From: an uncultured Acidimicrobiales bacterium
GTDB lineage: Bacteria > Actinomycetota > Acidimicrobiia > Acidimicrobiales > SZUA-35
Reading direction: 5' to 3'
DNA: 64,000 bases
NCBI GenBank assembly: GCA_937922785.1
Contig: CALAJQ010000012.1
Location: 186,001-250,000 of the forward strand
The notes beneath the pieces were generated by a model. The model had not been told where the DNA came from and did no database searches. It saw nothing but the letters and a program-made list of their open reading frames with translations. Position numbers and translations under genes: made by a program. This document shows, one piece after another, positions 44,198 through 53,274 of the stretch; the first letter of the stretch is position 1; each line of letters opens with the position of its first letter.

Positions 44198-46348
44198 TTA
44201 GCTGACCTGGGAACTGGTGGTGGCTTCCGCAGCTGGGATTACTACTGTTTGGTAGCGATTTGTTGCCGCCACACCTTCTGCTTGCAGGTCAATGTCGATA
44301 ATCAAGGTGCCGGTCCGGGCAGGAACGTCGAATCCGAAGTCCCCGACGAACTGCACGCTGTCGGCTTCGATCGGCCCTTCCCATGTTTTTGCAAATTCCC
44401 AAGCACCGCAACGGGCGCGGGCACTAACCGAGACAGTCCCGAGTTCTCTACGTAGATCGTTAACGGCATGCACAGTCAGGTCGAGCCGCTCGCCTGGAGA
44501 GACCAAACGCGGCGGCGAATCTGCAATCACGACTACGGGGCGACAAGCGTCGGCGACTGCGTTGAGGGCGGGTTTCGGGCGACGTTCAGAATCGAACAAG
44601 CCAAAGCCGCCCTCAGGCGCAGCATCCACTAGCGACATCAAACAGAAGCCAGTCGAGGGTGAGTACTTAAGACGACGCACTGTCTCGATTTGGTGCCGAA
44701 GGAGGTCTGCTTGATAGGCCCGTGTTGCATGTGCCCAGCTGATGCCGTCGCCGTAGGCCTTTCTAGGAAGATAACGGGCGAAGCTAGATTTCTGTGCACC
44801 GTTCCACGTTGGTTCGTCTTCGGGCCAGTCAGCCAGACTGACTGATTGTGAGCCGAATCCTCCTAGGAATCTGCCCAGCATCGGCCAACGCCGAATCATC
44901 TCGCCAAGCTCGGTGTAGGTACCGGTGAACCAGCCAACCCACAGATGGGGATCAGATGCTGCGGACGAGCCGACCAAAGCGTCAGTTGGTCGCGGTAACC
45001 CTCCGGAACGGGCGATTACAGATCGGGTTGGGTCCGAAGTTTTTAGTTCACGCCTCACCAGCGGGCCCAGGTAGCTGCGGTTCCAGCTGGGCGCCAGGTG
45101 ACGCGCTAGCCGTTTGGCCAGTTCTGATCTGCTTGCAGTCCGGTTGCCGGGTGGAGGAATTGGTGGCCCGTTCGGTTCATCGTGCGCGCACCAAACTGCA
45201 ACCGAAGGATGAGAGCCAAGCTGGTCTACAGCTGACCGTGCCACAACCCGGGCTGCCTTGCGGGCTCGAGTGCTGTGCACCCCAACTAAAGGCAAGTCTT
45301 GCCACAACAGCATGCCGGCTTCATCGGCAGCTGAATAAAGCTCAGGCCGTCCGATGTGACCATGAACTCGGATCAGATCCAGCCCTGCTTCGGCAGCGGC
45401 CTGGACGTCTTGGGCAATGGTTGCAGCGTCAATCGATCCTAGGAAACGGTCCTGAGGGCCGATTGACACACCCTTGGCAAACAGCTTTTGTCCGTTCACC
45501 TTGAACTGTAGATTGTCAACCGAAATTGACCGCAGACCTGTTCGCCAATGGCGGCGGTCCGACACTTCGGCGTCTTCTCCTCGTATCGCAACACCAACTT
45601 CGTACAGCGGTTGCTCACCAACTGAGTGCGGCCACCACAGGCGTGGTTTCATGACCCGAGTCGTCCACTCGATTCGGTTCTCTCCAGCGGCCACGGTGTG
45701 CAGGTCGCTTCCGCCAGCAACAGCTACTCCATCGTTACCGGTAACGGAGGTGTCGATGCGAAGGTCACCGGCCGAGGCCGCGTCGATGACAAGTCGAATG
45801 TGAAGGTCGGCCGAAGCGGTTGAAGCTCGGGTACAAAGAATCCGAGAATGTCGAATCGCGACGGTCCCAGTCTGCCTAACCGAAACCGGTCGCCAGATTC
45901 CGCCTGGTGATCCTGTTGGGGCGAGAGGTCCTGCTTGCAGGCTGCCAGTTAATGCGTGCTTCGGTTGACCCGCCTCGGGTTCGGGGCAAGACACTTGAAC
46001 GGCAAGAAGATGATCGGTCCGGGCTGCCAGAGCTTCGGTCACTTCGAACCGATGAGGTAAGAAGTATCCGGTAGTTGAGCCGAGAAAGTTGCCGTCTAAC
46101 CAGACATCAGAGTCGGCTATGACTCCGTCAAGGGTGAGCCAGTGTCGACTGTTGCCATCGGGCTTTGGGTGGCTGAAAGGCTTTCGGTAAAGCAGTGGTC
46201 CGGTACTAAAGGCGAAGGCGGTGCTCTGTCCCCAATGGCCAGGTACGTTGACCACGTCCCAAGACGAGTCATCAAAGTCGATGTCAGCGCCCGCTCTGTC
46301 TAACTCTGGCGTTGGCTTTGCCGCCCGCCATTCCCCCGATAGATCCAC
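44198..46348 (-). CDS. Glycoside hydrolase family 2-like protein lacking the nucleophile
   Basis: A 716-residue GH2 protein of the beta-mannosidase-like type: N-terminal sugar-binding jelly roll (LTLDGVIADSDVWLDGNFLG), immunoglobulin-like domain (RLWWPHSVGEQPLYEVGV) and TIM barrel. The acid/base Glu is kept (CAHDEPNGPP, Glu391), but the nucleophile motif, usually SEFG, reads FLGGFGSQS with Gly497, so hydrolysis by the retaining mechanism should fail. The GTG at 46348 is 6 nt after TAGGTT (46360-46355), hence a probable leaderless start; GTG 46354 is the other option. It could be a binding protein or use different chemistry. Confidence 0.8.
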   Translation of the reverse strand: MDLSGEWRAAKPTPELDRAGADIDFDDSSWDVVNVPGHWGQSTAFAFSTGPLLYRKPFSHPKPDGNSRHWLTLDGVIADSDVWLDGNFLGSTTGYFLPHRFEVTEALAARTDHLLAVQVSCPEPEAGQPKHALTGSLQAGPLAPTGSPGGIWRPVSVRQTGTVAIRHSRILCTRASTASADLHIRLVIDAASAGDLRIDTSVTGNDGVAVAGGSDLHTVAAGENRIEWTTRVMKPRLWWPHSVGEQPLYEVGVAIRGEDAEVSDRRHWRTGLRSISVDNLQFKVNGQKLFAKGVSIGPQDRFLGSIDAATIAQDVQAAAEAGLDLIRVHGHIGRPELYSAADEAGMLLWQDLPLVGVHSTRARKAARVVARSAVDQLGSHPSVAVWCAHDEPNGPPIPPPGNRTASRSELAKRLARHLAPSWNRSYLGPLVRRELKTSDPTRSVIARSGGLPRPTDALVGSSAASDPHLWVGWFTGTYTELGEMIRRWPMLGRFLGGFGSQSVSLADWPEDEPTWNGAQKSSFARYLPRKAYGDGISWAHATRAYQADLLRHQIETVRRLKYSPSTGFCLMSLVDAAPEGGFGLFDSERRPKPALNAVADACRPVVVIADSPPRLVSPGERLDLTVHAVNDLRRELGTVSVSARARCGAWEFAKTWEGPIEADSVQFVGDFGFDVPARTGTLIIDIDLQAEGVAATNRYQTVVIPAAEATTSSQVS

Positions 46349-46379: not shown

Positions 46380-47345
46380 TCACCCCAACAGAGTGAGCGC
46401 ATAGTAGTCATTCTCGCTAGTCCAGGTCTTTAGGTGGGTCCAGCCCGTGTCCTCAATGGCGGCAGCAAACCGTGTCTCGCTGTACTTATGAGAGTTTTCG
46501 GTGTGGATGCGCTCGCCAGCAGTGAACACAAACGCGTGGCCACCCACAGTGACCGTTTGGTCAACAGTTGATTGGAGGTAGGTCTCTATCCGATCCAATT
46601 CTTCGTTGTACTCAACCATGTGCCAGAACTTCATCCGATCGATGTCACCGCCCAGTTCGCGGTTGATTCGGTCCAGCAGATTCAGATTAAACCGGCGGGT
46701 CACCCCGGCAGCGTCGTCATAAGCGGCTACGAGAACGTCGCGATCCTTCACTAGGTCATAGCCCACAAGCAGGTGAGATCCGCTTCCTAGATGGTCGTGA
46801 ATCCGTGCCAAGAACTGCTGGGCTCCTCCTGAGTCGAAGTTGCCAATTGTGGAACCGGGCAGGAACCCTAAACGAGATTGTGAGTCTCCCGACTCCAGTT
46901 CGGGCAGGTTGGCAAAGTCTCCAAGTAGCGGAGTAATCGTTATGTCAGGTCGGATAGCCGAGACCACTTCAGCTGTGGATTCCAGCTGTTCAATCGCTAC
47001 ATCAAGCGGTAGATACTCAGTGAGACCCTCAAGTGCTTTCACCAGAGTTTCAGTGCGAACGTCGGACCCTCCGCCGTACTCCACTACTTGGCGCACATGG
47101 CCAAGTAGTCCATCGAGCTGATCAGCTATTTCGCTGAGTAGCGCTCGCTCGTGCTTTGGCAGGTAGTACTCGGGGACCTGCTTGATCTGTTCATAGATCT
47201 CTACGCCAACAGCGTCGTAGAAGTACTTGGGCAACGTCCACTTCTGCGGAGCGCTGAAACCTTTGATTATGTCTACGAGGAACTCATTCTCTGAATCGTC
47301 CATGTCGCCGTCCATGTCATCGTGCATGTCATCTTCCATGTACAA
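46380..47345 (-). CDS. egtD: Histidine N-alpha-methyltransferase, ergothioneine type
   Basis: EgtD trimethylates histidine to hercynine using SAM, the first step of ergothioneine synthesis. Family landmarks are YFYDAVGVEIYEQIKQVPEY (about 42-61), the SAM-binding YGGGSDVRTETLVKAL, FLPGSTIGNFDSGGA and TENSHKYSETRF. The first ~18 residues are an unusual Met/Asp-rich tail (MEDDMHDDMDGDMDDSE) that may not be translated, since several ATG codons follow one another. EgtB and the other egt genes are not in the window, so a hercynine-only role or a partner elsewhere must be assumed. Confidence 0.9.
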   Translation of the reverse strand: MYMEDDMHDDMDGDMDDSENEFLVDIIKGFSAPQKWTLPKYFYDAVGVEIYEQIKQVPEYYLPKHERALLSEIADQLDGLLGHVRQVVEYGGGSDVRTETLVKALEGLTEYLPLDVAIEQLESTAEVVSAIRPDITITPLLGDFANLPELESGDSQSRLGFLPGSTIGNFDSGGAQQFLARIHDHLGSGSHLLVGYDLVKDRDVLVAAYDDAAGVTRRFNLNLLDRINRELGGDIDRMKFWHMVEYNEELDRIETYLQSTVDQTVTVGGHAFVFTAGERIHTENSHKYSETRFAAAIEDTGWTHLKTWTSENDYYALTLLG

Positions 47346-50700: not shown

Positions 50701-51378
50701 CTAGTGCGAACCTTCGTCGAGCTCTTCGAACACGTCTTCAAGAACGTCCCAGGCTGCTTCATCGTCGAAGTCCCACTCAACCATTGGGATTCCGAGCACC
50801 TCGTCTTGCACCTCGGTGTAGGCGATGCCGGCTGCGTCAAGAGCTGCCTTGATTGCCTCATTCTCCGCAGTTACCTCAGCGATGATCTGGTCTCGCTCAG
50901 CCTGGTCCAAGCTTGCGAAATCTTCAGCCCACTGCTCGTTGAACAGGTCGTCGACAATCTCGTTCGCAGCTTCGTCTTCGAAGTCCCAGACGATGTACTC
51001 AACGCCCAGCTCCTCGTCGATCTCGACCGTGTAGGCGATGCCGGCTGCGTCAAGTGCTTCCTTGATTGCCTCATTCTCGGCAGTGATTTCTTCGACAAGC
51101 TCTGCCTTCTCTTCATCGCTGAGATCGTCGAAGTCAAAGTCACAGCCTTCAACTTCAATAGCTTCGCCGTCGTCGAACACAAGGTCGCCGTCAACTGCCT
51201 CGACTTCTTCAGCCTGAACTGCTGGCGTTGGCTCTGCTGCTGGCGCATCGGCTTGGGCTGAGGCCACAGATGCGGCTCCGCCGGTTAAAGCGAGGGCCAG
51301 CAGAATGCCGCCAACCAACTTGGTGTTGGCCTTGCCCGCTTCAGTACGGCCTGCTTCTGTCTTGTTTGGATCTCTCAT
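50701..51378 (-). CDS. Exported acidic protein with two internal repeats
   Basis: A 225-residue protein with a Sec-type signal (hydrophobic 21-41, LVGGILLALALTGGAASVA, ending ASA) and a very acidic mature part. Residues 92-146 and 162-216 are repeats with nearly the same pattern: ITAENEAIKEALDAAGIAYT and VTAENEAIKAALDAAGIAYT, followed by WDFEDEAANEIVDD and WDFDDEAAWDVLED. No known family. It precedes the response regulator and kinase on the same strand, 67 bp apart with a hairpin between, so it may belong to their regulon or supply their signal. A good ribosome site (AAGGAG) precedes ATG 51378. Confidence 0.75.
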   Translation of the reverse strand: MRDPNKTEAGRTEAGKANTKLVGGILLALALTGGAASVASAQADAPAAEPTPAVQAEEVEAVDGDLVFDDGEAIEVEGCDFDFDDLSDEEKAELVEEITAENEAIKEALDAAGIAYTVEIDEELGVEYIVWDFEDEAANEIVDDLFNEQWAEDFASLDQAERDQIIAEVTAENEAIKAALDAAGIAYTEVQDEVLGIPMVEWDFDDEAAWDVLEDVFEELDEGSH

Positions 51379-52630: not shown

Positions 52631-52669
52631 TCTAAGCGGTCTCTGACTGATCTCTAAGCGGTCTCTGAC
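52631..52669. repeat. Two 17-bp direct repeats at a convergent gene junction
   Basis: tctaagcggtctctgac occurs at 52631-52647 and 52653-52669, 22 bp apart, covering the end of the esterase gene's 3' flank and the last codons of the DsbA gene. Confidence 0.75.
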
Positions 52670-53274
52670 CGGTACTGCTCGATCACTTCACGGTAGGTGG
52701 ACACGTCAACCGCTCCGGGCACGAGATACCTACCACCGACCACCAACGACGGTACCGAGTTGATGCCAGCGCCAATGGCCTCGTTGTGTTCGTTCACAAC
52801 AGCGTCAAGCAAGATCTTGTTTTCCGACTGCCACCGAGCATCGAATTCGGCCCTATCAATTCCAGCCTCAGCCGCAATGTCCAACAACACTTCTCGATCT
52901 GAGATTGTGCGGTTCTCGGTGAAGTACGCCTTTAAGGCAGCGTGATGGAACGCCTGGTAGGCGCCTTGGCCAAACAGCGCCGCCACCTTGCCTGCAACCG
53001 CTGATGGCATGCTGTGGCTTGGAGGCTCGGACTCACCCGACCATTGGTTGAAGACCGTTCTTGGCTCCATCGAACCTGGCCGCTCCCAAGACTCGGTGTA
53101 GTTAGTGAATTTCTCCATCGACCGCTCTTCGGGTTCGGGCCGCAACATGAAACTTCGCCAGTTCAGCTCTACTTGATCACCGTATTCGGCCACGATTTCC
53201 TCAAGACGCACGGTCCCGACGTAGCACCAGGGTCAAAGGTAGTCAGACCAAACATCGAGCTTCACGGGATTCAT
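52654..53274 (-). CDS. DsbA/FrnE-family oxidoreductase with in-frame UGA at catalytic Cys
   Basis: The frame opens ATG 53274 (MNPVKLDVWSDYL) and hits TGA at 53235-53233, then continues as PWCYVGTVRLEEIVAEYG, the start of a DsbA/FrnE-type thioredoxin-fold protein (about 206 residues). The UGA replaces the first Cys of the CPWC motif, so a selenocysteine reading (U-P-W-C) is the simplest explanation; everything else of the family follows, including ERPGSMEPRTVFNQWS, the cis-Pro segment GINSVPSLVVGGRYLVPGA and a normal stop. Were UGA a stop, a start at GTG 53211 would yield a protein without its active site. A candidate hairpin lies just downstream of UGA. No sel genes are in the window. Confidence 0.8.
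53208..53225 (-). other. Candidate bacterial SECIS hairpin
   Basis: After UGA, 7 nt precede a stem GC-(U bulge)-ACG / CGU-GC with apical loop UCGGGAC. The loop is G-rich and centred about 17 nt after UGA, where bacterial SECIS loops lie. The stem is short, and the fold was drawn by eye. Confidence 0.4.

Follow-up and report, generated by a model that had tools for sequence, protein, structure and literature searches.

The closest described systems are the DsbA-like selenoproteins of COG2761, which I take to be the FrnE group. As far as the accessible parts of these sources go, nine DsbA-like selenoproteins from the Sargasso Sea were placed under COG2761 in 2005 (PMC1088965, Table 1), a COG2761 DsbA-like selenoprotein is listed as 'DsbA-like protein form 1' (PMC13188914, Table 1; PMC9312934), and a UxxC protein named 'DsbA 1' was reported from the Global Ocean Sampling data in 2008 (PMC2398784). 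Among proteins with an ordinary Cys at this position, the FrnE of Deinococcus radiodurans is described in PMC8945050 as a protein with a CP(W/F)C site that is predicted to act as a cytoplasmic disulfide oxidoreductase, and its C-terminal CXXXXC is said to serve regeneration. The same source reports a C-terminal CXXXXC in many FrnE proteins and its absence from those of S. roseofulvus and D. maricopensis.

The window, a stretch of 64,000 nucleotides from an uncultured Acidimicrobiales bacterium (SZUA-35), contains a gene that is almost certainly an intact FrnE-type selenoprotein gene despite an apparent stop codon (Table 1). From ATG 53274 its reading frame passes through a single TGA and ends at TAG 52656-52654 without a further stop in between, and the TGA occupies the position of the first active-site Cys of CPWC in the motif SDYL-U-PWCYVG. 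Translated through the TGA, the protein matches the Pfam DSBA family (PF01323) over residues 6-198 (E = 5e-27). Its best sequence match is Deinococcus FrnE (E = 3e-19). A structure predicted with Sec modelled as Cys, from an alignment of 40 rows that left out 41 of the 81 available, reaches a pLDDT of 96.7 and has FrnE 5co3 as its best PDB match (E = 2.1e-12, TM 0.81). Pro175 is presumably the expected cis-Pro of the thioredoxin fold. With a DsbA domain, a CXXC-type site in which U stands for the first Cys, and FrnE as its closest match, the protein is a member of the FrnE subfamily of DsbA-like proteins. An earlier reading made from the sequence alone (the sequence-only reading) had called the gene a probable selenocysteine-containing DsbA/FrnE-family oxidoreductase, with a frame free of other defects from ATG 53274, a TGA exactly at the first catalytic Cys and an automatic start at GTG 53211 that would lose the active site. 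All four proposals are borne out by the frame, by aligned relatives that have TGA or TGC/TGT at this codon, by the FrnE matches and Sec machinery, and by the standard-code ORF list, which does begin the product at that GTG.

Table 1. Features of the selenoprotein gene, in coordinates of the window
Feature	Position	Strand	Evidence
FrnE-type DsbA-fold selenoprotein gene, 206 residues, U14, stop TAG	52654..53274	(-)	frame, Pfam, FrnE match, fold
UGA predicted to be read as selenocysteine, residue 14, first place in U-P-W-C	53233..53235	(-)	
TGC codon, expected resolving Cys17; sole Cys codon in the gene	53224..53226	(-)	
bSECIS-type hairpin, 7 bp (UCGGGAC / GUCUUGA), two G-U, loop CGUGC at 53212-53208, UGA-loop distance 20 nt	53201..53219	(-)	
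GTG, start in the ORF list if UGA is a stop; inside the hairpin loop	53209..53211	(-)	
Pro175, invariant in 40 aligned rows; preceding Val nearly invariant	52750..52752	(-)	alignment

Although D. radiodurans FrnE (5cnw, 5co3) is the best match by both sequence and fold, it has Cys in place of Sec, a C-terminal CXXXXC and 260 residues, whereas the window protein is shorter and, since it has no Cys other than Cys17, lacks the CXXXXC. Rv2466c, a mycothiol-dependent nitroreductase (PF22234), is likewise of DsbA type with a P-W active site and has a Sec form in this very genome, but it belongs to another family, PF22234 not being matched by the window protein at E <= 0.001. The COG2761/PF01323 selenoproteins, so far as the available portions of their descriptions go, share with the window protein a DsbA domain, Sec at the first place of UxxC, a bSECIS-type hairpin and Cys homologues. 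The likeness is one of description, and the window member differs in that its own genome was found to carry the complete Sec machinery. Since such proteins were reported in 2005, the window protein is a well-supported further member of that kind; the present analysis adds a view across the whole clade and evidence from covariation. In the open-licence literature I found no account of Acidimicrobiia selenoproteins.

If the UGA is decoded as selenocysteine, the sequence-only reading had argued, then selA, selB, selC and selD must lie elsewhere in the genome. SelA, SelB, SelD and tRNA-Sec were indeed all found in the same assembly, a draft of 4.9 Mb in 45 contigs that is 95.7% complete. SelA (E = 5.5e-94) is directly followed by SelB (275 bits against a curated cut-off of 242), and tRNA-Sec, with the anticodon TCA, scores 66.7 bits (cut-off 47). 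SelD (368 bits; L010, G000:C16:164748-165671) has a TGA at its own active site, HGAG-U-GCK, and would itself be a selenoprotein. The accompanying remark that such machinery is uncommon in this lineage has to be given up, SelA being present in 36 of the 39 genomes of the organism's family. It was found in all 12 family genomes with a TGA orthologue. In the wider class 12 of the 13 genomes with TGA have it, and the one miss, G226, is 79% complete. However, of 20 genomes that lack a close orthologue, hand-picked from the class match list and not drawn at random, 11 have SelA as well; SelA alone is therefore no predictor of the gene.

A single in-frame TGA in a draft assembly is what one mutation or one sequencing error would be expected to leave, and the gene could accordingly be read as a Cys-type FrnE inactivated by a nonsense mutation, or as an intact one with a miscalled base. 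The distribution of the codon argues strongly against both. Relatives were collected with patterns that excluded the Sec codon, and among the best 80 of 189 (20 of them the same genes as those in the family and class genome set) the column that the sequence-only reading had proposed to compare with Cys homologues holds TGA in 77, TGC in two and TGT in one, with TGA kept across identities down to about 38%. The frame 3' of the TGA extends for 189-212 codons in the 77 TGA relatives, and the scattered further nonsense changes that the same reading had named as a possible refutation are absent from them. Furthermore, the part 3' of the TGA is under purifying selection, with dN/dS of 0.1-0.3 against three relatives, although dS is near saturation (dN/dS pairs: L100, the same gene as in the family genome G038, 0.21/2.2; L101, 0.22/1.8; L105, 0.41/1.4). 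Together with a frame that has no other defect, these results make a pseudogene or an error very improbable for the window gene, and for the family this explanation is already refuted.

A TGA orthologue is present in 12 of the 39 family genomes, the organism's own included (two are fragments at contig ends), and among 395 genomes of the class in the organism's own and 13 more, with TGC orthologues in another three and an additional, weaker TGA match in G329 (30% identity). Outside the class, a search of 396 genomes from other classes of the phylum (E <= 1e-20) returned four more TGA forms with U-PWC (the FrnE-like loci L196, L197, L200 and L201), in G598 (49% identity), G492, G713 (34%) and G687 (32%); the predicted use of Sec in a FrnE-like fold reaches beyond the class. 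The record titles of the best 80 of 189 relatives are mostly Acidimicrobiales, Acidimicrobiia and Acidimicrobiaceae, with some Actinomycetes, Actinomycetota and Candidatus Microthrix, and three odd ones: Gammaproteobacteria (L165), Myxococcales (L177) and delta proteobacterium (L179).

Five distinct Cys orthologues are known in all, including the TGC forms L060, L061 and L063 (the last identical with L151 of the best 80). Twice, TGA and TGC forms occur within one genus (g103, in G053 and G094; g108, in G226 and G062), and on the tree the two members of each pair stand side by side (L129 with L061, L128 with L060); the residue has therefore been exchanged. The tree of 98 rows, from which L151 had been dropped as a duplicate of L063, separates one group of 78 U and 5 Cys rows from 15 Cys paralogues. 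It is not a clean one-origin tree, the U label requiring four changes over the 98 rows, and because the root is a midpoint root and the branches are long, the direction of change between U and Cys is unsure. On the same tree L165, the TGA form labelled Gammaproteobacteria, adjoins the two Cys forms whose records are titled Myxococcales and delta proteobacterium; either horizontal transfer or a binning error may lie behind this placement. A Cys orthologue might be taken as a sign that Sec decoding has been lost, an idea I rejected, as SelA is kept in all three class genomes with a TGC orthologue. In the part of PMC1794560 available, Cys homologues in Sec-decoding bacteria are noted for other families also.

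How would the UGA be distinguished from a stop? The published constraints on bSECIS elements, as given in the accessible portion of PMC13188914, are a loop of 3-9 nt, a stem of 4-16 bp, a G among the first two loop nucleotides, a spacing of 16-37 nt and an MFE <= -7.5. The window hairpin lies within them, with its 7-bp stem, 20-nt spacing and -8.9 kcal/mol for 31 nt, and the N1-N2 pair that usually closes such loops is absent (C and C). Its own fold is not more stable than that of shuffled sequences (z of -1.04, 0.11 and 0.21 for 31, 46 and 59 nt), and I have therefore dropped fold energy as an argument. The case for the hairpin is convincing by comparison among relatives only, not from the window's own sequence. 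Thus, of the earlier proposal that a hairpin stands at the right distance, its presence, bSECIS geometry and covariation hold, and fold energy lends it no support.

In relatives, nucleotides 13 to 33 after the UGA follow the pattern GUCGGGAC-loop-GUCUCGAC, exactly or with variation. A bSECIS-like hairpin at a spacing of 20 or 21 is formed by 71 of the 77 TGA relatives (the exceptions being L117, L122, L142, L148, L165 and L174), against 474 of 3850 synonymous-codon controls (12%). For covariation, three of the 77 TGA rows were dropped for identical 45-nt pieces, and the comparison covers 75 distinct TGA rows. Over these, 86.8% of cells are paired against 82.6% after shuffling (none of 500 shuffles as high), pairing falls to 33.6-47.7% when the partners are slid, and changes on both sides occur in 37 cells against 16.1 (again none of 500). 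At pair 21-31, 58 rows have GC, 13 have CG and four do not pair; at pair 22-30, 47 have AU, 17 GC and 10 GU, and one does not pair. Of the five covariation measures, two stay at chance level: the number of pairs with a change on both sides (4 against 3.4) and that of further pair types (10 against 10.4). The outermost two pairs fail to form in 36 and 24 of the 75 rows. A set of 25 rows from family and class genomes gives a similar picture. Third-base entropy in the four columns of conserved codons within the hairpin is 0.70, 1.05, 1.57 and 0.79 bits (mean 1.03), against a mean of 1.73 bits over 21 columns further on, the loop Val column at 1.57 being hardly below the latter. Among the Cys forms, the hairpin is not formed in L061, L063 or L177; L063 has another hairpin, L179 a different one at a spacing of 33, and L060 an interrupted 5-bp remnant.

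The same hairpin bears on the reading given by the standard-code ORF list, in which translation begins only at GTG 53211, the TGA merely ends a leader and the product is a protein of 185 residues without the active-site pair. That GTG lies in the loop of a conserved structure, and the product would lack strand 1 as well as the catalytic motif, whereas S-D-x-L-U-P-W-C is shared by all 25 aligned sequences, three of them Cys forms whose frame is open throughout. There is thus very little chance that the short product is the only one.

The same genome has a gene of a second, predicted selenoprotein family. The Rv2466c-like gene (PF22234; L195, G000:C3:117169-117789) has an in-frame TGA at U-P-W-C, and the motif codon is TGA in all 16 Rv2466c-like loci inspected (L180-L195, one locus in each of 16 of the 39 family genomes), each followed by a hairpin of at least 8 bp with the three-base loop GUU. 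The match list, whose stop counts include terminal stops, suggests more such TGA loci in family genomes. In G030 the Rv2466c-like TGA gene lies directly before the FrnE-type orthologue, and if the latter starts at the GTG concerned, the two Sec genes share the overlap GTGA, a hint at coupled translation. I found no account of a Sec form of Rv2466c in the open-licence literature, and the terms 'mycothiol', 'nitroreductase' and 'PF22234' are absent from a 2026 review; judging from the available portions, such a protein could be hidden under the DsbA-like entries of that review or under 'DsbA 2' of PMC2398784. That TGA is instead a general sense codon for some ordinary residue (codes 4 or 25), as three conserved in-frame TGAs in one genome (the window gene, SelD and the Rv2466c-like gene) might suggest, is practically out of the question, since all three stand at Sec/Cys-type active-site positions, TGA ends 13 of the 43 window ORFs that reach 250 aa or more (a count over both strands that includes overlapping ORFs), and the Sec machinery, tRNA-Sec included, is present.

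I therefore consider it highly probable that the product of the window gene is an FrnE-type thiol/disulfide oxidoreductase of the cytoplasm with Sec at the attacking position, the UGA being decoded by way of SelB and the hairpin. SelB with Sec-tRNA-Sec would bind the hairpin, the stem of which starts at nucleotide 14 past the UGA, and this codon would be decoded as Sec and not as a stop. In the resulting active site, Sec14-Pro-Trp-Cys17, the selenolate would attack a disulfide or other oxidised thiol, Cys17 would resolve the resulting mixed selenenyl sulfide, and recycling of the enzyme would presumably fall to an external reductant. The protein would probably reside in the cytoplasm and act in the reductase or isomerase direction.

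The surroundings of the gene add little to this. Across 14 stretches there is no conserved gene neighbourhood around the orthologues; the neighbours that recur are a MoxR-like ATPase (L084, at about 3 kb), ORF 45474-45803 (L084) and an alpha/beta hydrolase (L090, L093 and L094, at 5-6 kb), and they say nothing firm on function. Elsewhere in the window, ORF 46380-47345 (-) looks like EgtD, the histidine methyltransferase of ergothioneine synthesis. The product of 50701-51378 (-) is acidic and may be secreted; two stretches within it resemble each other (ENEAIK-ALDAAGIAYT), and its gene adjoins a response regulator and histidine kinase pair.

The two Sec proteins invite the idea that the cytoplasmic thiol defence of Acidimicrobiia rests partly on a selenocysteine pair, FrnE-U and the Rv2466c-like U protein with mycothiol, a suggestion that I regard as speculative and rather unlikely. 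As no NCBIfam model matches the FrnE-type window protein at cut-off or the Rv2466c-like Sec protein at E <= 0.001, such genes are probably mis-annotated, and the window gene, truncated by a standard-code ORF list, is almost certainly an intact selenoprotein gene. The family provides a well-sampled case of Sec/Cys exchange in which the hairpin can be traced base by base. Finally, SelA, and hence probably the use of selenocysteine, is the rule in the family to which this bacterium belongs.
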